A stretch of DNA of 27,620 nucleotides from a virus: positions 1-27,620 of the IMG/VR virus record IMGVR_UViG_3300050821_002138; one strand, given 5' to 3'. The position numbers and the translations under genes were made by a program. A model generated the notes under the pieces. The model saw nothing but the letters and a program-made list of their open reading frames with translations. It did not search any database and was not told where the DNA came from. Shown in pieces: positions 1-22,859 of the stretch (its first letter is position 1; each line of letters opens with the position of its first letter).

Positions 1-1
1 T

Positions 2-103
2 GAATTTAGCCAGATCACATTCCAGGTTCCCGAGCCTGACAGTCTCTTACTCCTGATACTCGCATTAGCTCTTTCAGGATTGGGGATGAGGAAGAAGCCA
101 TGA
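2..103 (+). CDS. C-terminus of a PEP-CTERM sorting-signal protein (5' truncated by window edge)
   Basis: The reading frame is open from base 2 to the TGA at 101-103. Its last residues are a classic PEP-CTERM tail: the VPEP motif at 26-37, then Asp-Ser, a Leu/Ile/Ala-rich membrane segment (about 44-85), and a short basic end (Arg-Lys-Lys-Pro). In known systems this tail is recognised and cleaved by an exosortase in the inner membrane of Gram-negative, exopolysaccharide-producing bacteria, so the protein goes to the envelope or outside. The stop overlaps the start of the next gene as ATGA, which places it in the small-gene operon that follows. The body of the protein lies outside the window, so its function cannot be told. 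A chance hydrophobic tail is possible, but the full order VPEP, membrane span, basic end makes that unlikely. Confidence 0.72.
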   Translation, partial: EFSQITFQVPEPDSLLLLILALALSGLGMRKKP

Positions 104-255
104 AGAAGAAACCAACCAAGAGAGCGAAACGACCGACAGTCGTGACAGAGCTACGGGATATGCGGGCCGAGCTTAACGAACGCCTGCGGGTGATTGAGTC
201 AGATATCGGAAAGATCCAGAAGAACATCGGAATACTGGCAACGAGGAAACCATGA
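100..255 (+). CDS. Small basic helical protein, unknown function (51 aa)
   Basis: This 51-residue frame starts at ATG 100, overlapping the preceding stop as ATGA, and ends at TGA 253-255, which again overlaps the next ATG. The N-terminus is very rich in Lys/Arg (MKKKPTKRAKRP). The remainder (VTELRDMRAELNERLRVIES...) has the heptad-like spacing of a short coiled coil. A GAGGAAGAAG stretch just upstream can serve as ribosome binding site. The family is not recognised. A charged N-terminus plus a coiled coil fits a small oligomeric or nucleic-acid-binding phage protein, but that is inference. The overlaps on both sides support it as a real gene despite its size. Confidence 0.6.
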   Translation: MKKKPTKRAKRPTVVTELRDMRAELNERLRVIESDIGKIQKNIGILATRKP

Positions 256-383
256 ACGACCCGGACAATGACCGCAGACAACTAGAACAGACAGAACAGG
301 CGCGCTACGAGGAAGAAGCAGGATGGTTGGCATCGGACCCCGAGTACATCAAGTGGTTGCAGAGCTACGAGGAAAGAACATGA
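252..383 (+). CDS. Small acidic protein, unknown function (43 aa)
   Basis: This 43-residue protein (MNDPDNDRRQLEQTEQARY... to ...YIKWLQSYEERT) is linked to both neighbours by ATGA overlaps. It is rich in Glu/Gln/Asp, with a Trp/Tyr-containing C-terminal helix. An ACGAGGAAAC sequence directly upstream gives a plausible ribosome binding site. It resembles no family I can name. Its position in an uninterrupted chain of coupled genes is the main support. Confidence 0.55.
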   Translation: MNDPDNDRRQLEQTEQARYEEEAGWLASDPEYIKWLQSYEERT

Positions 384-817
384 TCGGTACGGTTACAAGG
401 CGTGGCATGTCCCAAAGCCAAAAGCCCATCATCATCATTGATGACAAGACCTATAGTGCAGCTAAAGTCGATTTAGGGGGTTTGGTTTCCGGGGATCGCA
501 TCGAATTTGACGCCAATTCCAAGGTCTACAACGGGAGCACGATCTGGTTCATCAATAGCTGGAAGATGATACAGGCGGCTACGAAGCCCCCAGAGGAACA
601 GAAGTACCCAGCTACCCCTGTACCCCACATCCCCTCACCTATCGCCTCTCCTACGCCAGCTACGCACGCTCAGAACGCACTCCTGAGCGTCACTGACGTC
701 GAAAGGCCATGTTGCAGCAATTGGGGTGCCGAGTTGATCCGGGCCGGTGTTGTCAAAGAGCCAGCCGATCTTGGTATCTGGGTTCAGGCTATTTTGCGGT
801 CCCTGCGCGGCCAATGA
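380..817 (+). CDS. Phage protein with possible OB-like N-terminal domain
   Basis: The start is taken at ATG 380 (MIGTVTRRGMSQSQ) because it overlaps the previous stop as ATGA and has GAGGAAAG about 4-11 bases upstream; an in-frame ATG at 323 would overlap the 43-residue gene heavily. The 145-residue product has a beta-rich N-terminal part (about residues 1-65, with short strands such as KPIIIIDDKTYSA and GDRIEFDA), a Pro/Thr-rich linker (about 70-100), and a C-terminal helical part (NWGAELIRAGVVKEP...). This domain order recalls small nucleic-acid-binding phage proteins with an OB-like fold, but no signature motif is certain. Function is unassigned. Confidence 0.7.
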   Translation: MIGTVTRRGMSQSQKPIIIIDDKTYSAAKVDLGGLVSGDRIEFDANSKVYNGSTIWFINSWKMIQAATKPPEEQKYPATPVPHIPSPIASPTPATHAQNALLSVTDVERPCCSNWGAELIRAGVVKEPADLGIWVQAILRSLRGQ

Positions 818-1077
818 TCGAACAACTCGGTATAGACCCTCGCGGAGACCTATCCCAGGTTGAACCTGAAGTGGTGGAATCCCACGTCCACATGCTCGCC
901 TACATTCTCACAGCCGATCTAGATGAGTTTGAGATAGCTGATGACTTAAGAGCCTATGTGAAGGCTTACCTTATCGAACAACCAGAACTCTATATGTGCG
1001 TTCTTGACAAGCTGGTAGCGGATAAGACCACGACTAAGGCTATCTGGCGCAAGTGGCTTGAGACTTATCGTGATTAG
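814..1077 (+). CDS. Hypothetical phage protein (87 aa)
   Basis: The start at ATG 814 (MIEQLGIDPRGDLSQ) overlaps the preceding stop as ATGA. The same frame is open further upstream, but those starts run deep into the preceding gene. The product is an all-helical, acidic 87-residue protein with no Cys or membrane segment that I can see, and no recognised family. It lies three genes before the DUF1364-like nuclease gene, in a zone where tailed phages usually keep recombination and replication accessory genes. Confidence 0.65.
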   Translation: MIEQLGIDPRGDLSQVEPEVVESHVHMLAYILTADLDEFEIADDLRAYVKAYLIEQPELYMCVLDKLVADKTTTKAIWRKWLETYRD

Positions 1078-1390
1078 CGAAGAACGCTTGGAGAAAGCAC
1101 TTGTCTACCTCGCCACAACGGATCAGGAAGCGGCGGACCTCAAGGTGTCATATCTGCGACAGGAATATGCTGCGGATCTTGCTCGCAAGCGAATTTTCCT
1201 CCTTAGTGAAGGGAATAACGAGGAACGGAAAGCTAAAGCTGAGACATCCGCTGAAGTGCAAGAACGCCAAACCGATTACTTTGGTGCTATTGAAGCCTAC
1301 GAAAGGGTCAAAGCGAAAAGGGCGACGGAAGAACTGATCGTGGAAGTATTCCGCACGCTTGAGGCATCACGCAGGCAGGGCCGGATATGA
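1070..1390 (+). CDS. Conserved small phage protein, helical (106 aa)
   Basis: The GTG at 1070 (VISEERLEKALVYLATTD...) is preferred over the in-frame TTG at 1058 because it gives the short 8-base overlap typical of this operon and the ISEERL...ALxYLAxTDxxAADLK beginning that I recall from many unannotated phage proteins. The protein is highly charged and helical, with AxTSxEVQER and YERVKAKR patterns. Such proteins often sit near single-strand annealing or ssDNA-binding genes, so a helper role in recombination is possible but unproven. It ends as ATGA with the next gene. Confidence 0.7.
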   Translation: MISEERLEKALVYLATTDQEAADLKVSYLRQEYAADLARKRIFLLSEGNNEERKAKAETSAEVQERQTDYFGAIEAYERVKAKRATEELIVEVFRTLEASRRQGRI

Positions 1391-1662
1391 CCGATTTGAG
1401 AAAACTAGCTAAAGGGCAGAATTGCCAGATCCGTTTACCGTGTTGCAATCACAACCCTGAAACGGTTGTACTGTGCCACTTCAGGCTTTCTGGAATCAGC
1501 GGACTAGGAATGAAGTCACCTGACGCAATTGCTTCCTGGGGTTGTAGCGCATGCCATCAATTCGTAGATAGCCACAAGGACGAAACAACACAACTGGCGT
1601 TCGCACACGGAGTGCTGAGAACCATAAACGCATTGATAGAGGATCAGGTGATTTCGTGGTAG
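1387..1662 (+). CDS. DUF1364-type nuclease domain protein
   Basis: The 91-residue product has the hallmarks of the DUF1364 family of short phage proteins: an N-terminal LRKLAKGQNCQIRLP segment, a CCNHNPETVVLCHFRL stretch, a GLGMKSPDAIASWGCSACHQ segment and a following VDSH. The paired Cys/His residues (CC...C-H... and C-x-x-C-H) look like a metal site in an HNH-like fold. Family members are found in the recombination/replication regions of lambdoid and related phages; a nuclease role is inferred from the fold and has rarely been tested. ATG 1387 overlaps the previous stop as ATGA. Length is normal for the family. Confidence 0.85.
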   Translation: MTDLRKLAKGQNCQIRLPCCNHNPETVVLCHFRLSGISGLGMKSPDAIASWGCSACHQFVDSHKDETTQLAFAHGVLRTINALIEDQVISW

Positions 1663-1949
1663 AACAGCGGACATCGGAAACGAAGATCACCGATCTGGCG
1701 ATCCATAGGCCAGACAAGGAGCCGCATCAGCTCCATCGGCGAGAGTACACGTTCTATCGCGGCGCTTGGTACGCGCGCGTCCCCTACTCCGACCCGCACA
1801 TTGATCTGACAGCGAACCTAGGCTCTCACCAAGTGATCGAGCACAATGACGGAACCCTGACCGTGAGTCCGTCTATTCTCGTCAGCGATGGCGCGGCTGG
1901 GCATCAGTGGCACGGCTTTCTTGAGCGCGGCGTATGGAGAGAGGCATGA
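1656..1949 (+). CDS. Small phage protein, DUF6527-like (tentative)
   Basis: The start is GTG 1656 (VVEQRTSETK), overlapping the preceding stop by 7 bases. The 97-residue product has a C-terminal half with a DGTLTVSPSIL segment followed by a His/Trp-rich GHQWHGFLERGVW segment. The order 'TLxPSI ... H-x-F/W-x-x-x-G' resembles the short DUF6527-type proteins that are common in phages, though the usual N-terminal Cys residues are missing here. Function is unknown for that family. The ribosome binding site is weak, so translation probably depends on coupling to the upstream gene. Confidence 0.65.
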   Translation: MVEQRTSETKITDLAIHRPDKEPHQLHRREYTFYRGAWYARVPYSDPHIDLTANLGSHQVIEHNDGTLTVSPSILVSDGAAGHQWHGFLERGVWREA

Positions 1950-2248
1950 GCGAGAATGAGTTATTAGCATTCGATGAGAAGTTAGGGCGTTTCATCAAGA
2001 AGGACGGAAGCATGGCATTCCCAGAAAATGACCCGCTGTCCTCAAAACCGAACAACGATCACTTCGCGGACAAATTCCCGACGGCCGACGAGCTGGCGAT
2101 GCTCCGCGAGGCGTACGCCGAGATTTACCCGGTGCGTCCGCTGCTTAACGAGATCGAGCGGCTGCGCGCGGCGCTGGAGAAGATCGCCGCCACCACTTGG
2201 GCGTGGGAAGGCATTGAAATAGCCCGCGAAGCCCTTAAGCTGCCTTGA
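1946..2248 (+). CDS. Hypothetical helical protein, last gene of the plus-strand operon
   Basis: ATG 1946 (MSENELLAFDEKLGRF) is chosen over the in-frame ATG at 1934 because it makes the ATGA overlap seen throughout this operon; GAGAGAGG lies just upstream. The 100-residue product has a C-terminal helix with Leu/Arg heptads (LLNEIERLRAALEKIA) consistent with a short coiled coil. The GC content over about 2080-2200 is visibly higher than in the genes before it. No family is recognised. It ends 36 bases before the oppositely oriented late operon ends. Confidence 0.65.
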   Translation: MSENELLAFDEKLGRFIKKDGSMAFPENDPLSSKPNNDHFADKFPTADELAMLREAYAEIYPVRPLLNEIERLRAALEKIAATTWAWEGIEIAREALKLP

Positions 2249-2252
2249 CCGT

Positions 2253-2279
2253 TATCCCTACAGTCTCAGGATAGGTTTT
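2253..2279. terminator. Possible weak terminator at the convergent operon junction
   Basis: Between the two convergent operons there is a short inverted repeat, TATCC (2253-2257) and GGATA (2269-2273), with an 11-base loop and TTTT at 2276-2279 on the plus strand. Five base pairs are too few for a convincing intrinsic terminator. Position is the main argument: both operons end here and would otherwise collide. Confidence 0.25.
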
Positions 2280-2284
2280 ACCCT

Positions 2285-2485
2285 CTAATGCCTGAATCCG
2301 TTATTGCCGAAGTTCATGTTCCCACCACCCACGTAGTTCAGAAGCCATACAAGGATTATCACCCCGATGATGACGTAGATGACAGTCTTGATGATCGGCG
2401 GGATACCGGGAATTTGGTTCACGCCCCAGAGGATGAGCCCTACTATACAAAGAACGATAAACGCGGTCAGCAACATGGTAATCAT
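2285..2485 (-). CDS. Small two-span membrane protein, Thivi_2564-like
   Basis: The 66-residue protein has two hydrophobic segments, about residues 4-21 and 31-52, joined by a short polar turn (NQIPGIPPIIKT), and a Gly/Asn-rich tail (GGGNMNFGNNGF). The pattern resembles the short Thivi_2564-type membrane proteins seen in Proteobacteria and their phages, whose function is unknown. The start at 2485 has AAAGGAA about 7 bases upstream. It is the last gene of the late operon, next to lysis genes, so a holin-like or anti-holin role is possible but only an inference. Confidence 0.75.
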   Translation of the reverse strand: MITMLLTAFIVLCIVGLILWGVNQIPGIPPIIKTVIYVIIGVIILVWLLNYVGGGNMNFGNNGFRH

Positions 2486-2495
2486 AAAGATTCCT

Positions 2496-2585
2496 TTAGG
2501 TGAATTTGCACTTACCCTTATGTCCTGCGGGTAAAAGGCATTTAAATACCTTACCTGCGAACTTCAGGGTCTTCTTGCACTTCAT
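2496..2585 (-). CDS. 29-residue Cys/His mini-protein
   Basis: This very short gene reads ATG at 2585-2583 to TAA at 2498-2496. Its start overlaps the stop of the upstream gene as ATGA, the same coupling as elsewhere in the operon. The product has Cys3, Cys16, His22 and Cys26 in the pattern C...F-x-C-x-L-P-A-G-H-x-G-x-C, plus many Lys. Small phage proteins with a C-x-LPxGHxG(x)C/H motif are widespread, and the four residues could bind one zinc ion. Function is unknown. The gene would be missed by most annotation length limits; the coupling and motif together support it. Confidence 0.5.
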   Translation of the reverse strand: MKCKKTLKFAGKVFKCLLPAGHKGKCKFT

Positions 2586-2785
2586 GTGTCCAGTTCTTCT
2601 ACCTTTCGTCTCAGGCTCTCCCGGTCCTCGAATACAACATCGTGTCTTGCCTTCCAGTCGTCGCGTTGTTCAACTACACGTCTGTAGGCTTGAGCCAAGG
2701 CAAACACGTCATCAGTACTCACTGTCACATAGTCATCCAGCACCCGTTGTGCGATGAGGTCAGCATCGTTTACGGTGGCGTTCAT
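2582..2785 (-). CDS. Hypothetical small protein (67 aa)
   Basis: ATG at 2785-2783 (MNATVNDADLIAQRVLDDY) overlaps the stop of the hydrolase gene as ATGA, so it is preferred over the in-frame start at 2824, which would run 43 bases into that gene. The 67-residue product is acidic and helical, with a C-terminal stretch (RVVEQRDDWKARHD...SLRRKVEEL) that looks like a coiled coil. No family is recognised. Its own stop overlaps the next mini-gene. Confidence 0.6.
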   Translation of the reverse strand: MNATVNDADLIAQRVLDDYVTVSTDDVFALAQAYRRVVEQRDDWKARHDVVFEDRESLRRKVEELDT

Positions 2786-3360
2786 GCCTGCGACACGATC
2801 CTTTGAGCTTCGTACGGCCCCCATTGGGCGATGTTGTGAGGCTCGAAGAAGTCACTGTGCCCTGAGACTACCGGCATGTTTGGGGTAGCTCCGCAGTTGA
2901 TGGAGTGAATGTTAGGGTCTGTCCCCCAGTATCCGATGTGTCCCATCATTCCCCATGAGGGATCGGTTATCCCCAAGACTGAGGCAATCTCCGCAACCTC
3001 AGTAATAGTGTCTCCGGGGTTGTAGAGAACGTCTATGAACGACACATCCACGGCTCTCGTGATCCTTGGGTCCAATGCCCCGTTGATGAACACGCATCCT
3101 TTTACCCTGGCTCCAGCATTCATTAGGTCGTAGCAGATCGCAGCCCCATTTGAGTGACCCACAAGGATCGAACCAGGTTCAACAAAAGGGAGCATCGTTC
3201 TCCACACCAAAGGATTAGCTAACTTTGTTTCCAATCCCAATATATAGCCATAGTCGATATAGGTGACTTGCAATCCTGCTGCCACAAGATACGGAATGAG
3301 GTTCTCCACACAAGAGATTGCCTCCGTGTGGATTCCTGGCAACAGCAGGACTTTCGTCAG
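2782..3360 (-). CDS. Alpha/beta hydrolase (lipase/esterase-like) in the lysis region
   Basis: The product has the alpha/beta hydrolase signature G-H-S-N-G, the 'nucleophile elbow' with the likely catalytic Ser, after the strand SILV. A late His in VVSGHSDFF is the likely catalytic His, and an Asp in YNPGD may be the acid. There is no Met codon near the start. A TTG at 3342 would begin at PGIH and lose the first beta strand. A CTG at 3360 restores it (KVLLLPGIH), overlaps the upstream stop as CTGA, and has GAGGA nine bases upstream, so I extend to 3360 with caution. No signal peptide is seen. Its place beside lysozyme and holin candidates suggests a lysis or envelope-lipid role, as for mycobacteriophage LysB, but the substrate is unknown. 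Confidence 0.75.
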   Translation of the reverse strand: MTKVLLLPGIHTEAISCVENLIPYLVAAGLQVTYIDYGYILGLETKLANPLVWRTMLPFVEPGSILVGHSNGAAICYDLMNAGARVKGCVFINGALDPRITRAVDVSFIDVLYNPGDTITEVAEIASVLGITDPSWGMMGHIGYWGTDPNIHSINCGATPNMPVVSGHSDFFEPHNIAQWGPYEAQRIVSQA

Positions 3361-3452
3361 GAGCCTTCGTCCTCATCTGGCTCCGGCTCGGGCTTTGGCT
3401 GAGGTGGTGGTGGGGGCCATCTTTCAGGTTTTGGTTTCTTCGGGTCAGACAT
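3357..3452 (-). CDS. 31-residue proline-rich mini-protein
   Basis: ATG at 3452 begins MSDPKKPKPERW, followed by five consecutive Pro and KPEPEPDEDEGS. A strong ribosome binding site (TAAGGAG) lies 6 bases before the start and overlaps the previous stop codon. The protein is basic at the front and acidic at the back and is almost surely unstructured or polyproline-II. It lacks a lipobox or membrane span, so it is not an obvious spanin. Function is unknown. A longer frame to 3614 exists but lies inside the upstream gene. Confidence 0.55.
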   Translation of the reverse strand: MSDPKKPKPERWPPPPPQPKPEPEPDEDEGS

Positions 3453-3462
3453 ACATTTCTCC

Positions 3463-3810
3463 TTACGGTGTCTTTGGTGGTAACGAGGCAGCCAAGGCAG
3501 CGACCGATGCTGTCTGTGCCGTGGAGGCTGCTGCAATCTCAGCTTGTGCGGCTGCAATAGAAGCTTCGAGCTTAGTAGAAAGCGCACCTTGCACCTGTCC
3601 TGCAATAGAAGCATCGACCTTTATCAACCCGCCGGTAAGATCCCCGTTGAGTTGGATCAATGCGGCAGTACGACCTAAAGCTGTCTTGGCTGAGAGGAAG
3701 TTCTGCAGGAAGGACAGGACTGCCGGGCCTTCAATGGCAATCACATCGGCTTTAAGAAGCTCAAGAAGAAGTGAACCGCTGGGGGCCGGAACTGGATTCG
3801 GGGTACTCAT
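3463..3810 (-). CDS. Ala-rich helical protein of the lysis region (115 aa)
   Basis: ATG 3810 (MSTPNPVPAPSG) overlaps the stop of the holin candidate as ATGA; the in-frame start at 3948 would lie within that gene and is rejected. After a short Pro-rich beginning the 115-residue protein is helical. It has a central IQLNGDLTGGLIKVDAS segment and a strongly Ala-rich C-terminal half (about residues 70-110), which suggests a long amphipathic helix or coiled coil. No known family. It sits between two small lysis-region genes and probably acts with them or belongs to the virion. Confidence 0.65.
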   Translation of the reverse strand: MSTPNPVPAPSGSLLLELLKADVIAIEGPAVLSFLQNFLSAKTALGRTAALIQLNGDLTGGLIKVDASIAGQVQGALSTKLEASIAAAQAEIAAASTAQTASVAALAASLPPKTP

Positions 3811-4127
3811 GTCTTTGGTATCTCCGTTGATGGGGGAGGGGAGGCTTGCAGCACGTAGGTCTTTATCGGGGAAGCCGCATCCACCTGCTGCTGGTGGACG
3901 ATGGCTTTTGCATTGGCGACAGTATTCGAAACCGATTGCGCACGCCAATATGTCAGGATGGAAATGGCACCGGCAAAGTACTTCAACGACGTTTCAGGGA
4001 TAAGGCCAGTGCCAACAAGAGTTGTGACGGTCCCGAGTGTTACCGCAATTATGCGGGTTGTACGGGCCTCGAACCAAACAAAAAGATTGGTCAGGAACTG
4101 CCAGAAGTTAAGCGGTGGTTCAGTCAT
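3807..4127 (-). CDS. Putative holin (two membrane segments)
   Basis: The 106-residue protein has an amphipathic N-terminus (NFWQFLTNLFVWFEA), two probable membrane spans (about residues 25-43 and 48-62) and a polar C-terminal tail. Size, two spans and position directly after the lysozyme gene (ATGA overlap) fit a class II-type holin, the inner-membrane protein that forms the lysis hole and times lysis. Sequence motifs cannot prove this because holins share little sequence. An alternative is a small membrane accessory protein. Confidence 0.6.
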   Translation of the reverse strand: MTEPPLNFWQFLTNLFVWFEARTTRIIAVTLGTVTTLVGTGLIPETSLKYFAGAISILTYWRAQSVSNTVANAKAIVHQQQVDAASPIKTYVLQASPPPSTEIPKT

Positions 4128-4570
4128 GTATCGCTACCGCTCACAAGGATACTCGCTAGTTTCTCATACCGCTCCTGATCCTCTCTTGCGGCCTTGGAGG
4201 CTAGTAACTGCGCTCCGGCTAACTGCCAGTTCTGTGCCCCCCAAGCCGCTATCATCTGGGTGAATTTCATCAAGGTTTCAACTCCCATATTGAACCCCAT
4301 ATCCAAAGCCACGGACTGACGTACAGGATCGCTGGATGAATACCAGGTAAGGGGGAGTAACTGTTCCTCTACTAACTCAGCCCTGTGCAGGAACAACCAG
4401 GAGACCTCTATAGGATCTAACCCTATCTCAAGGTTTACCCCGATCCCGATAGAGAGATTCCCATTTGGTTTTAAGGTGACTGACTTCCCCGTAGCGTCAT
4501 TGTAGGCGTAGTACCTGACCCCTTCCTCAACAGGAACACGCTTGGTGAAGATATCCAAAGCCTCACTCAC
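4124..4570 (-). CDS. T4-type lysozyme (GH24-like endolysin)
   Basis: The 148-residue protein aligns with T4 lysozyme around the active site: Glu16-Gly in VEEGVRYYAYNDATG corresponds to the T4 catalytic Glu11, Asp25 to Asp20, and NLSIGIG to the TIGIG segment. The T4 catalytic Thr26 is replaced by Ser40, there are about nine extra residues before it, and the His after GIG is Val. It should cut the beta-1,4 bond between MurNAc and GlcNAc in peptidoglycan. There is no N-terminal signal or SAR segment, so a holin is needed for export. It overlaps both neighbours by 4 bases. Length is near the usual 150-165 residues. Confidence 0.88.
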   Translation of the reverse strand: MSEALDIFTKRVPVEEGVRYYAYNDATGKSVTLKPNGNLSIGIGVNLEIGLDPIEVSWLFLHRAELVEEQLLPLTWYSSSDPVRQSVALDMGFNMGVETLMKFTQMIAAWGAQNWQLAGAQLLASKAAREDQERYEKLASILVSGSDT

Positions 4571-5058
4571 TTAGCACCCCAGTGAGCGACGTAGTAAAGC
4601 GTAAGTACCACGTTGCCTAATATCGCAATCACCAAGGCCACTTGTGTCCAAATAGCAGTGTGGTTTTCTTTATTCTCTCGTGTCCCTTCCTTGACTCCTG
4701 CCGTGATGTTGGATCTTTCCCGGAAGTCCTTTTCCAGCTTGTCCATCTGCTCTTTGAGAGTCTTGGAAGCTTGTTCACTCTCAGCACGAGGCATTAGCAG
4801 ACGCGATTGATCAGCGAGTGACGCACGAAACTCGTTCACCGCATCAAAGCGTTTCTCTGATGCTGACTCGGCTTTAAGAACTGCTCTGTCCGCTGCTGTC
4901 AAAGCGGCATTAACGGCATTTTGTTGGGCGGTGAAGGCTGCCGAGAGTGCTTCCGACTGTGCGGCAAAGCGTTGGGAGTAACGCAGGTCGTTAGCTTCGA
5001 TCAAGACCCTAAGAGTTTTAAGAGTCCATTCATCCCCGTTGGGATCACGTTCTGGCAT
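4567..5058 (-). CDS. Coiled-coil protein with C-terminal membrane anchor
   Basis: The 163-residue protein begins MPERDPNGDEWTLKTLRVLI. It carries a long Ala/Glu/Gln-rich coiled coil (about residues 25-125, including the ESASEKRFDAVNEFRASLADQ region) and ends with a single membrane span (about 137-157) and a short tail. This architecture is common in tailed-phage lysis regions, where such genes precede the endolysin; most are unannotated and some are proposed as holin or spanin-like components. Its start directly follows the stop of the tail spike gene, and its end overlaps lysozyme as ATGA. Confidence 0.7.
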   Translation of the reverse strand: MPERDPNGDEWTLKTLRVLIEANDLRYSQRFAAQSEALSAAFTAQQNAVNAALTAADRAVLKAESASEKRFDAVNEFRASLADQSRLLMPRAESEQASKTLKEQMDKLEKDFRERSNITAGVKEGTRENKENHTAIWTQVALVIAILGNVVLTLYYVAHWGAK

Positions 5059-6864
5059 TTAATTCCCTCTTGCCCGCCAGTAGACAACACTGGTCCCTGC
5101 GGTCCCTGCAACGTTAAGCGTGAAGCCTGTAGTGGAGATACTGGATAGACTTACTGTGTCCGTAAGAGCTGACGGACTTACGAGTGTCGCCTGCATATTC
5201 CACACTGCATTGGGATAGGCAATCCCGTTGGTAGCAAAGGTCACAGCTAAGGGCGTAGCTATCGTGACGGTAGCCGATCCCCACTGCTCAACTATCCCGT
5301 TGGCATCGATTGAGTAGCCATTTATGGCTGCCTTACCAAGTCCAGCAGGGGGAGCAATAAGCGGGCTATTGGGATTGAATACAAGATTCGCAGGAGCATT
5401 GGTTGTTGTGGTAAGTGCAGTCGTAACACCTGTGAAGTAATTATCTACTATCGAAACGCCAGTGATTGTGGCAGTAGTGAAGTCAATACCTCCAGTGAAG
5501 GTATCGAAGCTGTTTCCTGCTATCAGGACTCCATTACAACTGTTAAGGGAAATGGCATATGTAGTAGTGAATCCACCGAAACGATTACCACAGATCGAGA
5601 TCCCGTTACCGTATAACGTACACCAGATGGAGCCACCGAGAGTCACGTCCCCAAACCAACACCCGGTTATAGACAATCCCTTGGTTAATGGGACTGTTGA
5701 ACTGCCTAAGATTCCGCAAGCTGTTCCTGTTGCGCTCGCTTCAAAGTCACACCCGATAAATGACCAGCTTTCTCCCGGGTAGTACACAGCCCCAAAAACG
5801 TTACGGGTGCTATTGAAGCTGCACCCTTTTACAGTGACTACATTGGAGTAACCACCACCGCCTACAGCTACACCACGGATAGCAGGATTCCCGTAGATGA
5901 AAGAACAATTCTCAAAGTAGAAATCTATGCACTTGTTGATATCTACAAGGACAGCCCCCCCAGTCCCGAGACTTGAACCAAGTAGACAGTTGACGAGACT
6001 GTTGTATGCGGGGTCTCCATTTGTTCCATCGTTGTTACAACCGATGAGAGTATTTGTCCCATTCCCCCATGAAGCCTGGTTGTATTCAATCTGACAGTCC
6101 CTGATGGAGCATCCGATAGATGAATTAAGATTGATAAAGACACTGGAGACAGTTCCGGTGTACTGAATGATGGTCGCGGTAGCTGCCCCGGCAGAGCGTC
6201 CCCCAGAACCTTGCAGGATGATATTGCGCTTGACGTTAAGCCCGATCTGTCCGGCAAAGTTAAAGACCCCTGGTGGAAACGTGATTGTCCCACCATTTGT
6301 CCCGCAAACTGAAATGACACTGGCTAATGCCGTATCGCTTGCACTAACTCCAGTAGGGTCCCCACCATAACGGCGAATGTCGAAAGGCTGGTAACTGAAA
6401 TCAACAGGAACGACAGCAGCACTGATCTCTGCATTTGTTCGAGCGACATACCCTATGTTTCCGGTTGCAGTATCTAAAGCCGGGGAGTTGTTGGGACCAA
6501 GATAAAGATTGGCCCAAGAGAAAGTAGGACTCCCGAGCGTGAAGGAGTTGGTTACCGAAGGGATTATATTCCCGCTTGAAAGTGCCCCTGTGATGTTGTC
6601 TACAGGCCATCCGGGAATCGTGTTCCCTAGAGAGTCCGTAAGAAGGAACTTATAGCCCAGGGTTGGGTTGAGCCATAAGGCACACTCACCGCGAGCATTC
6701 AGGACTATGGGATTAAGATTCGGTGTGGACTGAGTTGAATCTATGTATGTGGCTTGGGGAGTAGTTGTTCCTGCCGTATAGCTGTAGAGAAGTCCGCCAG
6801 CCAAAGGGGTTCCATCGTTATTGAAGGCTTTGAAAACCGGAGCGGGACTTAGCTGGGCTGTCAT
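5059..6864 (-). CDS. Tail spike with right-handed beta-helix
   Basis: The 601-residue protein has three parts. Residues about 1-95 are a virion-attachment domain (FNNDGTPLAGGLLYSY..., PNLNPIVLNARGE, YKFLLTDSLGNTIPGWP) shared with the next fibre. From about residue 160 there is a pectate-lyase-3-type beta-helix entry (FDIRRYGGDPTG...SDTALASVI...GGTITFPPGVF) followed by many beta-helix rungs with repeated Asn/Cys/Gly turns. The last ~90 residues form a compact beta-rich tip. Such spikes bind and often hydrolyse surface polysaccharide; catalytic residues cannot be assigned by eye. It follows the other fibre gene by 2 bases and precedes the lysis genes. Confidence 0.85.
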   Translation of the reverse strand: MTAQLSPAPVFKAFNNDGTPLAGGLLYSYTAGTTTPQATYIDSTQSTPNLNPIVLNARGECALWLNPTLGYKFLLTDSLGNTIPGWPVDNITGALSSGNIIPSVTNSFTLGSPTFSWANLYLGPNNSPALDTATGNIGYVARTNAEISAAVVPVDFSYQPFDIRRYGGDPTGVSASDTALASVISVCGTNGGTITFPPGVFNFAGQIGLNVKRNIILQGSGGRSAGAATATIIQYTGTVSSVFINLNSSIGCSIRDCQIEYNQASWGNGTNTLIGCNNDGTNGDPAYNSLVNCLLGSSLGTGGAVLVDINKCIDFYFENCSFIYGNPAIRGVAVGGGGYSNVVTVKGCSFNSTRNVFGAVYYPGESWSFIGCDFEASATGTACGILGSSTVPLTKGLSITGCWFGDVTLGGSIWCTLYGNGISICGNRFGGFTTTYAISLNSCNGVLIAGNSFDTFTGGIDFTTATITGVSIVDNYFTGVTTALTTTTNAPANLVFNPNSPLIAPPAGLGKAAINGYSIDANGIVEQWGSATVTIATPLAVTFATNGIAYPNAVWNMQATLVSPSALTDTVSLSSISTTGFTLNVAGTAGTSVVYWRARGN

Positions 6865-6866
6865 AA

Positions 6867-8795
6867 CTAGACCGAATACGAGAAGATTATGAGGCCGCTC
6901 AAACCCACGTTTCCTGCTGCTGGGCTTCCACCCCCACCCATTCCCCCTCCACCCCCGGAACCGAATAGTCCTGTAACCTGACCCCCGGCAGCTCCTGTTC
7001 CTGAACCATCCGAAGTCTGGTAACCAGCTTGTCCTGATCCGCCGGTCGTATTAACCACAGTCCCACCGACAGCAGCCCCACCAGCTCCGCCGGCACCGGA
7101 TGCAAACCCTGAGGCACTTGCTCCCCCGGCTCCGGGACTTGCCGTCATGGTGGTCATGGCTAAAGTGCCTGCGGTCACGGAGCTTAGAGTCCCGATGGTG
7201 GCTATAGCCCCTCCAGCCCCTACGCTATAGGTGACGGTATCGCCGCCTAACCCTGTAACCGTCACGACTGAGCGGCAGTACCCTCCAGCCCCTCCCCCTC
7301 CACCCCCTGCGTAGAGTGGCGGACTAGGCCTTGCGAGGCGTCCATTACCACCCCCGCCACCTCCACCCCAAACCTCGATTGTGACCGTGTTGTAGCCGCT
7401 GGGGACGGTCTCAGTGCCGGTCCCGGTGGTGTACTGGCGGGTCACATTACTCACGCTGGAACCTGTGTTCAGCAGCGTCGTATTGAGGTAGGAACCGGCC
7501 CTTAAGGTGGTCGGGGAGGCATTAGATGAAGCCTGTGCCCAGCTTATGCTTAAGGTTCCTGCCGTCCCTACCAGCATCGTCCCTTTGTAGAGAACCTGGT
7601 TTGCGTCCGCTGCTGTTCCTATGGTCGTGTAAGTGATGGTAGTCGAGTAGAAAGTGTCGGATTTAGGCCCGTAAGCCCCCGCGTTGACCCACCCATAGGC
7701 CAAGGCCGGCATAAGACCCCGGGAGTCAACTGCCGTCCCACCATTAGTCCACTGGAACCCACCGGCAGCAGGACCGTCAAAGACAAGGTAAAGCTCGAAC
7801 GAGTAGCGTCCGATAACAAGGCTGTTACTCACCAGATCAGGATCGGCGGTAAGGACAGCGTTTGAGGTTATAGCCGTATCTGAGGGCTTTACCTTTGTAT
7901 TGGGGTTAGCCCCGGAGAATATCTGGTAGACGAGAACCTTCCATGCCCCGGAACCTAAATACTCAACTACTGCAGCATCCCCGGCGGTCGTGATGATCGA
8001 GGAATTAGCCGGCAGGAGCATGGTCGATGGGTTGTAGGTGAGAGTAAGACCACCTGAGAACCTGACGATGTAGATAGGCGCTGAGAGGGAGGCAGACGTC
8101 CCAAAGGACGTGATCGTGGTAGTCCCGGTAATCAGCACCACATGGGCCAAGGCACTCCCCAGATCTGTCGTAGAAGCACTGGGAATGGCTGTTTCAGGCC
8201 CGAAAGTCCCTATAGTTGACCCTGTAAAATTACCTATGGAAACAAGCTGAAACTGGCCGTTGTAGTAGATGATCTGAGTCATCTGACCGGCAACTATCTG
8301 GTTAGCTCCTAGAGGCGTTCCGTTCGGATTGACGATAGAAACTATCCCCAGAGCATTGACGTTCATCGTCGAGGCCCCGGAGTTGTTGTTCGCTGGAATC
8401 CAGTAGATCACCGTCCCATTGGTGTAGGCACTCTGCGGGGTAGTAAAAGTGAGTATGTAGGCGTTGGTTGACCCTGTATCTATTCCACCGAAAAGGGTGA
8501 TGAGCTGCGTCAGTTCCAGGTTGTCGATAGGCCAGCCGGGGATGGTGTTTCCGAGTGAGTCTGTCAGCAGGAACTTGTAGGCCACATTGGGAGGGAGGAA
8601 TACCGGAGCTTCCCCCCTTGCATTAAGTACTATCGGATTGAGGTTCGGAGTGACCTGTCCGGGGTCCTGATAGGTTACTAAGGGGGTATTGGTCCCGGCG
8701 GCGTAACTCCAAAGTAGACCCCCAGAAAGAGGGCTTCCATCGTTAGCGAACCCCCGAAATGGAGTGTAGGGAGTGGGAAAGGCAGAGATGGTCAT
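6867..8795 (-). CDS. Tail fibre with glycine-rich receptor-binding tip
   Basis: The 642-residue protein begins with the same attachment domain as the neighbouring spike (FANDGSPLSGGLLWSY..., PNLNPIVLNARGE, YKFLLTDSLGNTIPGWP). Middle domains are beta-rich (e.g. STMNVNALGIVSI, NAVLTADPDLV). From about residue 470 to the end it is dominated by Gly runs (VWGGGGGGG, AGGGGGGAGG, GSGGGGGMGGGG), as in glycine-rich adhesin domains of phage receptor-binding proteins that pack polyglycine-II helices. The likely role is host recognition. No Shine-Dalgarno sequence is apparent before ATG 8795; a 12-codon frame upstream overlaps this start as ATGA. The gene differs from the spike by ending in a Gly-rich tip instead of a beta-helix. 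Confidence 0.85.
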   Translation of the reverse strand: MTISAFPTPYTPFRGFANDGSPLSGGLLWSYAAGTNTPLVTYQDPGQVTPNLNPIVLNARGEAPVFLPPNVAYKFLLTDSLGNTIPGWPIDNLELTQLITLFGGIDTGSTNAYILTFTTPQSAYTNGTVIYWIPANNNSGASTMNVNALGIVSIVNPNGTPLGANQIVAGQMTQIIYYNGQFQLVSIGNFTGSTIGTFGPETAIPSASTTDLGSALAHVVLITGTTTITSFGTSASLSAPIYIVRFSGGLTLTYNPSTMLLPANSSIITTAGDAAVVEYLGSGAWKVLVYQIFSGANPNTKVKPSDTAITSNAVLTADPDLVSNSLVIGRYSFELYLVFDGPAAGGFQWTNGGTAVDSRGLMPALAYGWVNAGAYGPKSDTFYSTTITYTTIGTAADANQVLYKGTMLVGTAGTLSISWAQASSNASPTTLRAGSYLNTTLLNTGSSVSNVTRQYTTGTGTETVPSGYNTVTIEVWGGGGGGGNGRLARPSPPLYAGGGGGGAGGYCRSVVTVTGLGGDTVTYSVGAGGAIATIGTLSSVTAGTLAMTTMTASPGAGGASASGFASGAGGAGGAAVGGTVVNTTGGSGQAGYQTSDGSGTGAAGGQVTGLFGSGGGGGMGGGGSPAAGNVGLSGLIIFSYSV

Positions 8796-16896: not shown

Positions 16897-17463
16897 CTAC
16901 TTCTTTGCGATCACACACGCATGGAGATCCATTGCTGCCTCTTTATAGTTGGATAACGCGAAGTTCTGATACTCCTGGTTCCTTACCATCAGATCCTGTC
17001 TCATCCCATAACCCCATGTCGCCTCGAAGTCACAGTCGTAGCCGTCGGGGTTCCACTCCTTGTCATTGTCGGGGGCATTGTCCTTCCTCCACGTCTTTGA
17101 CAGGTAGTAATAGAACATCTCTCCAACCGGAGGCCACTGGTGAGTGAAGTCACCATAGGCTCTGGATGAACACCAATGAGGCGTGATAATCTGACACTTC
17201 GCCCCGGGCTTTAAGACCCTGTATAGCTCGTTCATCACGAATACACGCTGAGGTCCGTTGAAGTGTTCCAAGGTGTGGGACATGTAGGCCTCGTCCACTG
17301 ACGAGTCCTCCCACGGCCATTTCTCGGTGAGTTCAGCGACTACATCAATACCGGGGAATGCCCTGCGGTCTACCTTAGTAAACCCCTCCTTGCCGTTCTT
17401 ACCGGCCCCAAGATCCAGCTTTAAAAGAGGGACTTCTACGACCGTTTCTGCTGTGGCTACCAT
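16897..17463 (-). CDS. Class I SAM-dependent methyltransferase
   Basis: Motif I is clear at residues 15-23 (KLDLGAGKN), with the ribose-binding acidic residue at VD32. Next come the motif around WEDSSVDEAYMSHTLEHF and the post-motif VFVMNELYRVLKPGAKCQIITP, the usual Methyltransf_11-type order. The 188-residue length fits a minimal class I enzyme. It should transfer a methyl group from S-adenosylmethionine; the substrate is unknown. Its gene overlaps the glycosyltransferase gene by 7 bases, so methylation of a sugar or glycan made by that neighbour is a reasonable guess. The context within structural genes argues against a DNA methylase, and no DPPY/NPPF motif is seen. Confidence 0.82.
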   Translation of the reverse strand: MVATAETVVEVPLLKLDLGAGKNGKEGFTKVDRRAFPGIDVVAELTEKWPWEDSSVDEAYMSHTLEHFNGPQRVFVMNELYRVLKPGAKCQIITPHWCSSRAYGDFTHQWPPVGEMFYYYLSKTWRKDNAPDNDKEWNPDGYDCDFEATWGYGMRQDLMVRNQEYQNFALSNYKEAAMDLHACVIAKK

Positions 17464-18197
17464 ACTGTATCAATCTCCCCGAAGGTTCCGTTGTAATCCA
17501 AATGACCGACTTTTACTGAACAATCAACTGCAAATCTATATCCGTACTTTCTCGCGTCTGTTGAGAAATAAAGGTCTTGGGTGCCCTGTCCCTTCCCCTC
17601 GATCCCTGAGAGGGTCTTGAACCAGGGTTTTCTAAGCTGCTCATCGCGGAACATCTTCATCCGCCAAAGATTGAATCCCATTCCGGTCCCCACACACTCC
17701 ACCAATCCGCCATTAGGATCTGGAGGTTGTGGTCTGAAATTCTGAACTGGATCTTTCACATCGCCCCAGATTTGAGCGCACCCCCCGGGGCCTTTGGTGA
17801 AGTAAAGTCCTCCAATACCTGAGAACTCCGGGTTGTTCTCCATGCGCTCGATGAGCTTCAGAACTCCATCTGCTGGAGGCAGGTTGTCGTGTTCTACGGT
17901 GAGCAGGTATTCCCAGTCCTTGAGGTCTGGATGGGCCAAAACTTGCTCTATCGCATTTGAGTATGCCTCTCCTACCTCCTGACCTAAGGCCAGAATCCTT
18001 ATCACTCCATTGTTCGGCGGGAAGGCGAGGTTCCACAAAGACAAGGCGACCTTTGCAGGCATCATGTCGGCGGAAGGTATTACAACGACCACCCGCTGGC
18101 GCTTCCACGACCCACCCTTGATGAGTCGCGCACTCGTCTTGGTGAGGTCTTTGTTATGTTCCCCACCCCAATCCTGCATTACTAACTGCGGTTTCAT
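17457..18197 (-). CDS. GT-A-fold glycosyltransferase (GT2-like)
   Basis: The 246-residue protein has a nucleotide-sugar-type fold: RVVVVIPSADMMPAKVALSLWNL near the front, a VGEAYSNAIEQVL helix, then WEYLLTVEHDNLPPADGVLKL with E-H-D (about 102-104) in the place of the metal-binding DxD. GIGGLYFTKGPGG and CVGTGMGFNLWRM follow, and a late QDLYFSTDARKYGYRFAVD matches the acceptor-side region. Donor and acceptor are unknown. Its start shares one base with the stop of the adhesin-like gene (TAATG), and its end overlaps the methyltransferase. Modification of virion adhesins or host glycans is inferred. Confidence 0.8.
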   Translation of the reverse strand: MKPQLVMQDWGGEHNKDLTKTSARLIKGGSWKRQRVVVVIPSADMMPAKVALSLWNLAFPPNNGVIRILALGQEVGEAYSNAIEQVLAHPDLKDWEYLLTVEHDNLPPADGVLKLIERMENNPEFSGIGGLYFTKGPGGCAQIWGDVKDPVQNFRPQPPDPNGGLVECVGTGMGFNLWRMKMFRDEQLRKPWFKTLSGIEGKGQGTQDLYFSTDARKYGYRFAVDCSVKVGHLDYNGTFGEIDTVW

Positions 18198-19771
18198 TAG
18201 TAGTTCCTGAAGATAACCGGGAAGTTTCCAGCCATCCCGTTAGTCCCGGTCGCTGAGATATTGGACATGGCTATGGTCTGATTAGTCGCGGTGATGGTAG
18301 CCGTATACATCCCCTGACTCACAACGTTCTGCGAGGCAGAGAAGGTATTGCCGAAATCATCTATCTGGGAAGCCGAATAACTCGCTCCCAGGATCATCGA
18401 AATGGTGTTACCAAGCAATGTAGTGGAGAGTCCAATGCTGCTGTTGTCCGTGGTGGATATCTGGAATCCCACCCAGTATTCCCCCGGTGTGAGAGATCCG
18501 TTGATCGGGAAACTGAAGTTCTTCCCACCCGTAAGATTCGAGTAATTGGAGCTATTGGACGCCCATGTGTATGTGGTCGTCCCGAAAGCCCCTGTGATGG
18601 GACTCAAGGTAGAACCATTCCGGCTGTAAACGACAAGCCCGGAACTCACGTTCATGTCTGCCGTTGCAGTGGTTGCGGCATTGGACATGGATACGAGACA
18701 AGGCACGTCTATCCGGGAGAAAGTCACCCCTTGTGGTAACTGGATATATCTGAAGCTCGCTGAAAGGTTCGTCTGCTGCTGGACAGTGCTTTGACCTAAA
18801 GGCCATGCATCCAACCTTGATTGTAGGATAGCTCCTACGCTGATCGTTGACCCTGCAGTCGAGACTGTTAGGCCGCTCGCTCCAACAAGGGAGGACGTAG
18901 CGGGGACAGAGAACAACGCGCTTTGGGCACCGCTGGAGATAGTCAGCGCCCCACCAGCGGCTGACAGAACTACAGTCCCGCTGCTGAATGTCGTGTTGCT
19001 TGCGACTATTGCAAGGCCACCAGTCCCGATAATTGAAAGTGTGGCGCTGCCTAAGTTGTAGGACTGGGAGAGAGAGATATTGTTTGAGCCAACGATAACG
19101 AGCTGGGCAGTCGCCAAACTTGCAGTTCCCGCCGTATTTCCGGCAGTGGACATTCCACCTGAGAACTGGGTCAGGGCAGCTGTCGCGGGGGCAGAGACAA
19201 GGAATGATCCGTTACTCAACCCTACCGATATTGCTCCAGCCCCATCAATAGAAAACGCATTGAAAGGCATCGTACTGGATGAGGATTGTCCAGTGGTATT
19301 CCCCACCCCGATGAGAGTTAAGGTACTTCCTCCACCCCCAGGAATTGAGGCCGTAATAGTCGAGCCACTTAACCCGAAACTCACGCCATTGGAATTTGAG
19401 AAAACAACTGAAGCTAAATTGTTGTTGGCAGTCCCGGCAGAGATATTAAGATTCGAGTAACTGCCTGTAAGAGTCGATCCATTCAGACCAAAACTTAAGC
19501 CATTGGAGTTTGAAAAGACGACCTGGGAGAGGAAGTTACTCGTAGTTCCTGCTGAAATGAGAGGCTGCGCACCTACTGCCGAGATAGTAACCAAGCCATT
19601 ACTTAGGCCGAAACTGACCCCATTTGTATTTGAGAACGCATTGATGATCTCGCTACCGGACAAGTTAGCTGTGGCAACATGCCCAGCATTCCAATGCGCT
19701 AAGGGGCGAATCTCAAAGTTAGTGTTATCCGGCGTGGTGGCTGTCAGGGCATGAAATACGCTTATAGGCAT
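18197..19771 (-). CDS. Ser/Thr-rich repeat adhesin-like virion protein
   Basis: The 524-residue protein starts with a short module (MPISVFHALTATTPDNTNFEIRPLAHWNAG) and then has at least three copies of a FSNSNGVSFGLxGSTIT-type repeat at about residues 46-60, 86-100 and 124-140. A long Ser/Thr/Gly/Ala-rich stretch follows. The last ~250 residues, ending FPVIFRNY, are clearly related to the 281-residue protein at 22859-23704, including TFSSGTVV, LFSVPATSSLVG and SLTPGEYWVGF segments. Composition and repeats suggest a fibrous surface protein. It lies immediately upstream of a glycosyltransferase, so it may be glycosylated on Ser/Thr. No catalytic motif is seen. Confidence 0.7.
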   Translation of the reverse strand: MPISVFHALTATTPDNTNFEIRPLAHWNAGHVATANLSGSEIINAFSNTNGVSFGLSNGLVTISAVGAQPLISAGTTSNFLSQVVFSNSNGLSFGLNGSTLTGSYSNLNISAGTANNNLASVVFSNSNGVSFGLSGSTITASIPGGGGSTLTLIGVGNTTGQSSSSTMPFNAFSIDGAGAISVGLSNGSFLVSAPATAALTQFSGGMSTAGNTAGTASLATAQLVIVGSNNISLSQSYNLGSATLSIIGTGGLAIVASNTTFSSGTVVLSAAGGALTISSGAQSALFSVPATSSLVGASGLTVSTAGSTISVGAILQSRLDAWPLGQSTVQQQTNLSASFRYIQLPQGVTFSRIDVPCLVSMSNAATTATADMNVSSGLVVYSRNGSTLSPITGAFGTTTYTWASNSSNYSNLTGGKNFSFPINGSLTPGEYWVGFQISTTDNSSIGLSTTLLGNTISMILGASYSASQIDDFGNTFSASQNVVSQGMYTATITATNQTIAMSNISATGTNGMAGNFPVIFRNY

Positions 19772-20720: not shown

Positions 20721-22859
20721 CTATAATCCATCTATGATATGCGCGAGTGCGAGGCGCTGGGCTTCAAACGTCCCGGGATCGCTCGGCCACGTTTGAAACG
20801 CATTAACGTAGTAGGTCGGGTCGTTGGTATCAGAAACCGGCACTTCCCACAGCGCCTGCGGGATGATCGCGGAGACTGCAGAAGTGACCGCGCTAGAATT
20901 GATCACATTAGCCATCGTGAGATAATCCACATCCTGTACACCGCGCCGGATGTGCTTTAAGCGCAGGCTTGAGAACGGGCCACCGACTCCGTATGAGGAC
21001 GATGGGAATACAAAATCAGTTCCAGGGTAGAAAAGCACCCCCTCACCGTTGTTACCGTAGAGCGTGCCTTTGATGCCATCCCCCGTACCAGTGCCGTAAG
21101 TGCGCGCTTCGTTGAACAAATCCCGCTGCCCACCGCCGAGTTGGTAATCGTTGTAGTAAGTGACTTCCCACTCGAACCAGCGGTAGATCCCCTTCTTGTA
21201 GAAGGCCCACCATGAAGCGCGAAGGTCAGTCCCGTCCCCTTCCGTGTTTATGGCCCCCTGCCCAATGCGCGCACCGTTGTAGCGCCATATCTGCCGACCT
21301 GCTTGGGCGGCAAATGCGGTATAGGCAGCATTCCACGCCGTCGTGCCCCCAAGACTGCTGCTGCAAGCGTAAGCAAGCGCAGGTTCAAGATTGATTATTT
21401 GTGTATAGCCATTGGAGTTCGTGGCTCCAGTCGGGTTACCGCTATAAGGAGCGTACACGTTCCAGTAAGTCGCGTTCGGTGGCACATGATTAGTGTTAGC
21501 CAGAATGCAGATGTAAAGAACGGAGCTGGAAACGACGATATTGTTGAGGACATAGGCCGTGGCAGAGTTCCAGGCAGAAACATGCGGGACCAACGGGAGC
21601 GTGGCGAATGAGGGCAGATTCACTCCAACGCCCGGGTTGGTCGCCATCCAGTTCGCGTATGTCTGTACGGCATTATAGTTACTGGACTCGTCCAGGAGAT
21701 ATACAAAACGTTGTGTACTCGGTGCATTCGCCTCGAACCATGTCTCCCATGCGTTCGTATTAGTCCAGAATCCTGCTTGGGTAGCAGGCCACGCGGTCGC
21801 GTTCTGCCAATGCCCGTATGTCCCTATAGAGTAAAGATCCATCCCGGTTCCATATCCGGGTCCAGCATAACCATAGGTAGAAGTGAACAGCGATCCTGAA
21901 AGGGCCAACTGGGCGGCAGGTCCAGGATTAGTCCCATAGTTGAACGAGATATCAAATTCTTCATCATCCGGCATTGTGAGCTTATGGCGATGTGCCATCA
22001 TGCGCTGATATTTCAGCACCTGTCTTGCAAGGGTGTCGGCGGCGCTCGGAATAACCGGGGACGAACTCCCGGTATACCGTTGGGCTACGTCCCCGTAGCC
22101 TGTGATAAGGAATGATCTGCCATTGGCAAGATCAGGCAGCGTGAAGTTTCGGACTGTTAACTGTACAGGAATCGTATGCGTGGGCGTACCGCTTTCTGTC
22201 ACCGTCACTGTGCCGGTGTAAAGCCCGTTGGTCGCAGTCTTGGGGATGTAAACATCAACCCAGATGCTCTGATTGTGTCCAACCGCAATGGTGAACGTCG
22301 GCACCAGCTCCAACGGCACCGCGATCTCTGGGTAATACTTCGCTGCATTTGGGCGATTCGCCCAGACCGACCCACCACTTGGCATCCGTAACTTCGTCGG
22401 GACTTGCGGCTCAAAAGCACTTCCCGTCAATGTGCCATAAGCTTGCGGCGACAGGCCATTGATCTGCAAATAGCGGACGTAGAAAAGCTCGCATTCCGTC
22501 GTCGTCCAGTTCCAAAGATTTGCTGAAGTCCTCGTCTGATCACAGCGAAGCGTCGAGCCTCCTGGCCCCACAAGATTACTCATCGTCACGGCTACTGACT
22601 GAGCTGCCTTGTTCGCAGCTTCGAGGATGATGTTAAATGAAACGACCTCGTTCATCGCGCCAAACTGCAAAATGTTCGTGCCGTCCCAACAAGTGTTGAT
22701 TACAGACGATGAACTTGTAGTAGCGCGAGTCTCATCCTGTGTAACTTTGTCCCCACCATCATTTGCCCATAATGCCGAGATAGCTACACTTGTCCCGCTA
22801 TCAAAAATCTGCCCACCAGGACCAATGACAACCTTGCCTCCCTGCGTGTACCAGGCCAT
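20721..22859 (-). CDS. GH123/DUF4091-like protein with inserted carbohydrate-binding segment
   Basis: The 712-residue protein has a beta-sandwich part at about 170-242 ending in IWVDVYIPKTATNGLYTGTV and IPVQLTVRNFTLPD, typical of the domain preceding the barrel in GH123/DUF4091 proteins. A barrel-like part follows, with RFVYLLDESSN at about 385-393; the adjacent Asp390-Glu391 fits the catalytic Asp-Glu pair of GH123 beta-N-acetylgalactosaminidases. At about 430-468 an AW...TAYVLNNIVV...LYICILANTN...YWNV segment resembles a CBM5/12 chitin-binding module inserted in the domain. Near the end SSLRLKHIRRGVQDVDYL matches the DUF4091 terminus. A glycan-cleaving role on the virion is inferred; the fold assignment is by eye. 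Its start shares one base with the upstream stop. Confidence 0.7.
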   Translation of the reverse strand: MAWYTQGGKVVIGPGGQIFDSGTSVAISALWANDGGDKVTQDETRATTSSSSVINTCWDGTNILQFGAMNEVVSFNIILEAANKAAQSVAVTMSNLVGPGGSTLRCDQTRTSANLWNWTTTECELFYVRYLQINGLSPQAYGTLTGSAFEPQVPTKLRMPSGGSVWANRPNAAKYYPEIAVPLELVPTFTIAVGHNQSIWVDVYIPKTATNGLYTGTVTVTESGTPTHTIPVQLTVRNFTLPDLANGRSFLITGYGDVAQRYTGSSSPVIPSAADTLARQVLKYQRMMAHRHKLTMPDDEEFDISFNYGTNPGPAAQLALSGSLFTSTYGYAGPGYGTGMDLYSIGTYGHWQNATAWPATQAGFWTNTNAWETWFEANAPSTQRFVYLLDESSNYNAVQTYANWMATNPGVGVNLPSFATLPLVPHVSAWNSATAYVLNNIVVSSSVLYICILANTNHVPPNATYWNVYAPYSGNPTGATNSNGYTQIINLEPALAYACSSSLGGTTAWNAAYTAFAAQAGRQIWRYNGARIGQGAINTEGDGTDLRASWWAFYKKGIYRWFEWEVTYYNDYQLGGGQRDLFNEARTYGTGTGDGIKGTLYGNNGEGVLFYPGTDFVFPSSSYGVGGPFSSLRLKHIRRGVQDVDYLTMANVINSSAVTSAVSAIIPQALWEVPVSDTNDPTYYVNAFQTWPSDPGTFEAQRLALAHIIDGL

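Follow-up and report, generated by a model that had tools for sequence, protein, structure and literature searches.

The window analysed here, a 27,620-bp IMG/VR fragment of a soil phage with P22-like coat and head-tail genes, opens with the 3' end of a gene (2-103, + strand, frame open at the contig edge) that encodes a PEP-CTERM tail. The gene very probably belongs to the phage, and we consider it reasonably probable that its product is sorted by the exosortase of the host to the cell surface or the exopolysaccharide, changing the exterior of the host during infection or lysogeny. Tails of this type recur in complete genes of the closest relative of the phage, in an unrelated clade of soil phages and in prophages.

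The visible part of the protein is its last 33 residues, the remainder lying off the contig: the translation of 2-103 reads EFSQITFQVPEPDSLLLLILALALSGLGMRKKP, then stop, and its C-terminal end is VPEPDSLLLLILALALSGLGMRKKP. The signal is tripartite, with a VPEP motif, a hydrophobic stretch (LLLLILALALSGLG) and a basic end (MRKKP, followed by the stop). In profile searches, the tail scores 29.4 bits with PF07589 (E 7.8e-7) and 22.8 bits with TIGR02595 (NCBIfam), where the curated cut-offs are 20.7 and 16 bits. It has two marks of PEP-CTERM domain proteins, scores above the curated cut-offs and a motif, hydrophobic stretch and basic cluster placed at the C-terminus. It is of the classical TIGR02595 type and falls far below the cut-off of the PEPxxWA-CTERM model (NF035944). 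The full tripartite signal, which an earlier note had read from the letters while recommending a search with TIGR02595-type profiles, is confirmed by both models. The PF07589 search of 34 coat-related phage records gave a single match, which is a genuine second case (G001, described below), and that of 14 control genomes gave none; a regular-expression scan of 1.18 Mb gave eight raw matches, among which the only credible tails were those of the window and of G001. A chance origin of the tail is therefore unlikely. That only one of the 34 coat relatives carries such a gene nevertheless counts against our reading. The exact pattern VPEPDSLLLL, with which we sought the complete window gene, had no match in IMG/VR.

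The TGA stop of the PEP-CTERM gene shares ATGA with the start codon of a gene encoding a basic small protein of 51 aa (100-255, +; no match in the PHROG search). This overlap, also remarked in the earlier note, joins it to an operon (100-2248, +) that meets late genes of the opposite strand. The following genes encode a small protein of 43 aa (252-383, +), which by eye, unscored, resembles the product of the small gene preceding the 145-aa homologue in G001; a 145-aa protein (380-817, +; 52% identity to G001 22240-22638, -); an 87-aa protein (814-1077, +; corresponding in place to G001 22061-22243, -, as judged visually from position and ends); a 106-aa protein (1070-1390, +; counterpart of G001 21748-22068, -, by eye, with relatives in other viral contigs); and a YbcO-type nuclease (1387-1662, +; PF07102, 105.5 bits; phrog_131). 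The gene chain leading to a DUF1364-like phage nuclease is thus borne out, DUF1364 being presumably the older name of the YbcO family (PF07102). The P22-like major coat protein (25634-26971, -; PF11651, 114.1 bits; phrog_283) was the query for finding relatives, 80 of which were fetched; compared with 84,980 genomes in search of the host, it gave none. No phage matched window positions 1-8000 in blastn, and the homologue search with the 145-aa family returned G001 only. The search with P0001 for homologues of the window operon or of the G001 PEP-CTERM protein among viral contigs returned only itself, and neither P0001 nor the PEP-CTERM tail matched isolate phages. Elsewhere in the window, a 712-aa gene in the head-gene region (20721-22859, -) matches models of the GH123 N-terminal domain over short stretches (PF19543, PF22680) and, weakly, a tail-fibre PHROG. 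A gene near the lysis genes (2782-3342, -; no Pfam match) resembles, on visual inspection, one for an alpha/beta hydrolase, with a GHSNG motif.

The closest relative, G001, is a near full-size record (42,565 bp) with a coat protein 98% identical to that of the window. It carries a complete PEP-CTERM gene (20754-21377, -) whose 207-aa product starts with MKWVVLLIVLLLACHAKA, judged leader-like by eye, ends with VPEPSVFSLMALGIAMVVGLRNFKRCAT, and clears the cut-offs of PF07589 and TIGR02595, each narrowly. The start of this gene overlaps (ATGA) the stop of a gene for a Ref-type RecA-dependent nuclease (PF16786), which stands where the window has the YbcO-type nuclease. The nuclease gene in turn closes a series of overlapping genes, the preceding members of which correspond, in the same order, to window 380-817, 814-1077 and 1070-1390 (the first scored, at 52%; the other two by eye). 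The place of the PEP-CTERM gene in the shared operon differs, being upstream of the common genes in the window and downstream of the nuclease in G001, where phage genes flank it for many kilobases on both sides. Because the closest relative has a complete PEP-CTERM gene in a matching operon, that of the window is very probably viral as well, and the absence of a host or prophage border claimed in the earlier note very probably holds. IMG/VR records are assemblies, and G001 could in principle be misassembled; the overlapping chain of genes argues against this. An AlphaFold model of the G001 protein alone (pLDDT 37) was uninformative except for a helix at each end. Downstream of the PEP-CTERM gene and on the same strand, G001 encodes an R2K-clade ATP-grasp protein (PF18299) and an MT-A70 methyltransferase (PF05063), at 17079-17792 and 18013-18852 (-). 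Beside its tail genes, region 354-2699 (L098) encodes a protein similar to NAD-dependent epimerases/GDP-mannose dehydratases (PF01370, 161 bits) together with a methyltransferase-like gene; modification of sugars may be a further capacity of this phage.

We joined three typical tails into one query and scanned IMG/VR, which revealed PEP-CTERM tails in 51 contigs; 44 of the 45 records tested passed PF07589. The phrog_2 terminase was found in 19 of 46 records, a count that is too low because the model misses the terminase of G001. Some of the 51 contigs may be host flanks, and we therefore relied on three contexts only: G001 and the window, a second phage clade, and prophages. The survey of other phages proposed in the earlier note thus revealed recurrence in unrelated phages. 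The second clade consists of soil phages unrelated to that of the window (L151, L153, L166, L169 and relatives) that encode on one strand, in this order, the terminase, the portal, the PEP-CTERM protein, a 65-aa protein, a 179-aa protein and the capsid. Among 80 contigs fetched by capsid, 32 encode between the portal and the 65-aa gene a protein with a leader and a C-terminal helix, the only features required for this count; with L195, in which the tail is followed by an extension, 33 have a predicted exported and tail-anchored protein, near-duplicates included (e.g., L189/L190 and L206-L209). Simple rules and visual inspection served to identify the leader peptides. The search for isolate phages related to this clade gave no match other than two remote records from spring metagenomes (34-35%).

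The patterns of variation at this place speak for our reading. The ectodomains of the 32 proteins fall into three families (10, 12 and 10 members) with no BLAST link between them, and these are exchangeable. The genes are kept by purifying selection, since their dN/dS ranges from 0.10 to 0.44 (16 pairs). In other contigs of the clade, the place between portal and capsid is either short and empty or, by eye, occupied by an HNH gene; HNH-like genes, also identified by eye, are found there in L184 (4350-4787), L205 (4284-4730), L234 and L245 (4356-4757). The model of a second-clade protein (12-row alignment, mean pLDDT 64.5) has a helix at each end and an all-beta or beta-rich middle, which is the arrangement expected from the mechanism proposed below. 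The protein has no PDB relative by sequence. The best structural match of the model is weak, an adhesin domain (Z 7.2 over 115 residues, 3.1 A); Foldseek and VIA-align gave nothing above this value, with carbohydrate-binding modules at Z 4-5, and such predicted matches are too weak to name a function.

The tail motif of the 33 proteins is an exact PEP in 21, PEA, PEI or PEL in 11, and PGP in one. The helix and the basic end are kept where the motif has changed (L173, L174, L179, L180, L199, L201, L202, L204 and L206-L209). Two of the non-PEP proteins were tested, and both fell below the PF07589 cut-off. The changed motif possibly reflects the loss or the tuning of exosortase recognition, and exosortase may not always be needed. 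These twelve proteins weigh against our reading and are what might be expected if the viral tail were a plain C-terminal anchor in the inner membrane, independent of exosortase, for a protein acting in the periplasm, e.g., by blocking DNA entry. We regard this as unlikely: the window and G001 proteins retain VPEP unchanged and score above the cut-offs of the curated models, PEP is kept in most second-clade proteins, and the motif hardly varies among known exosortase substrates (PMC1569441).

The third context includes a named host. Contig L146 and a prophage of Novosphingobium chloroacetimidivorans share 14.7 kb of identical sequence; portal, terminase and HNH genes surround the PEP-CTERM gene of the prophage. 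The genome of this lysogen encodes three exosortases and has 19 PEP-CTERM matches, including the prophage gene, as expected if the phage protein is sorted by the host. In L146, a gene for a leader-bearing 480-aa protein (5178-6620, +; no Pfam or PHROG match) adjoins the PEP-CTERM gene, and both are oriented against the head genes. In L163-165, which come from three isolates, the PEP-CTERM gene lies between the endolysin gene and the baseplate and tail genes. We found no exosortase in 46 phage records, which also favours sorting by the host enzyme. One IMG/VR record, G046 (L126, IMGVR_UViG_2751185896_000001), has five PEP-CTERM matches and probably includes host chromosome.

These contexts bear on three further explanations, each of which we consider very improbable. 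The first is that the tail belongs to host DNA at the contig end, be it a prophage border or a transduced or misassembled piece. The gene does lie at the extreme edge of the contig, and the other known occurrences of PEP-CTERM are in bacterial genomes (PMC1569441). Yet it overlaps the next gene of the operon, and host PEP-CTERM genes mostly form single-gene operons after large gaps (PMC1569441). A host border is made very unlikely by G001, with its matching operon and phage genes many kilobases to either side, and the two other phage contexts point in the same direction. Slightly less credible still is a lysis protein akin to u-spanin, i.e., an outer-membrane lipoprotein with a C-terminal helix in the inner membrane. 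The G001 protein does have a loose lipobox (LLAC) along with its C-terminal helix, but its start also contains an AKA signal-peptidase site, a lipobox is found in none of the 32 second-clade proteins, the gene is outside the lysis region, and the exact PEP motif would be left unexplained. The position between portal and capsid genes in the second clade could also indicate a virion protein that retains its tail by descent only, an equally faint prospect given the signal-peptide-like start and C-terminal membrane helix, the patchy presence with three unrelated ectodomains or an HNH gene exchanged at one place, and the early-type operon, away from structural genes, of the window and G001.

Sorting by a host exosortase would proceed as in bacteria. 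There, a leader directs the substrate through the inner membrane, where the C-terminal helix anchors it so that PEP faces the periplasm, the side on which EpsH (exosortase) acts (Haft 2006, PMC1569441). Within its early-type operon, the phage PEP-CTERM gene would be a variable accessory gene (a 'moron'). The protein, which in the window presumably begins with a signal peptide encoded off the contig, is expected to leave the cytoplasm through the Sec system of the host and to stay anchored in the inner membrane through its PEP-CTERM helix. The enzyme recognising the tail would be the host's, because the phages bring none, and the ectodomain would be delivered to the cell surface or the exopolysaccharide, where it would most likely alter the surface of the cell, whether infected or lysogenic. 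Processing, final location and function are deduced here from the sequences and from the known system. Exclusion of competing phages is our leading guess for the role and is proposed tentatively, by analogy with T5 Llp (PMC9586334). A change of the matrix or another surface effect comes second and is more doubtful; we consider it because PEP-CTERM proteins have a role in flocs (PMC9012009).

The comparison with known systems shows where the phage genes depart from them. They share with the PEP-CTERM/exosortase system (EpsH/Xrt; PF07589, TIGR02595, PF09721) a C-terminus made up, at its very end, of the motif, a hydrophobic helix and basic residues and, in the complete relatives, a leader-like start and a poorly conserved ectodomain. 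In contrast, their carriers lack exosortase, part of the set has PEA, PEI or PEL, and the genes lie in overlapping operons or structural modules, whereas the bacterial ones mostly form operons of a single gene preceded by a large intergenic region. The FxDxF (NF038126) and PEPxxWA-CTERM (NF035944) families are matched by several proteins of the second clade and of prophages, most of which are below the whole-protein cut-off of NF038126. Cor and SieA are phage envelope proteins for superinfection exclusion. Like T5 Llp (PMC9586334), the phage PEP-CTERM proteins would be small exported proteins in the host envelope with a patchy distribution; unlike these three, which have lipoprotein or membrane anchors, they carry an exosortase signal, and their role in exclusion is suggested by analogy.

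The nin region of lambdoid phages carries variable accessory genes among small nuclease and other genes in an overlapping operon, with YbcO or Ref nearby. The window and G001 resemble it in having a variable gene among small nuclease genes and genes without assigned function in an overlapping operon, and differ from it in that the position of the PEP-CTERM gene changes between the two; the likeness does not imply a temperate life for the window phage. As the earlier note had supposed, no established phage system using the PEP-CTERM pathway was found in the open-access literature. The PEP-CTERM genes of a Microcystis study are host genes (PMC12642866), and a Ferrovum study places the system in the host (PMC4886054). 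Sorting by PEP-CTERM is known, as are accessory genes of phages that act in the envelope; their combination appears to be undescribed.

Exosortase/PEP-CTERM sorting is regarded as a system that bacteria use for housekeeping and biofilms. Our results suggest that phages can use a surface-sorting enzyme of the host to alter its envelope. In a broader formulation, to which we would give an even chance, unrelated phage groups carry interchangeable surface cassettes addressed to the host exosortase, as a regular route to reshape exopolysaccharide-forming soil hosts during infection or lysogeny, and the loss of PEP in some of them represents an evolutionary escape from this processing or its tuning. 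If phages do use the sorting system, a testable route would open by which they exclude superinfecting phages or change the matrix of soil bacteria and floc formers, for which the Novosphingobium prophage offers a named lysogen in which to test the sorting of a phage PEP-CTERM protein. Exosortase may then bear on phage infection, and some of the 'host' PEP-CTERM genes in genomes would be prophage cargo.
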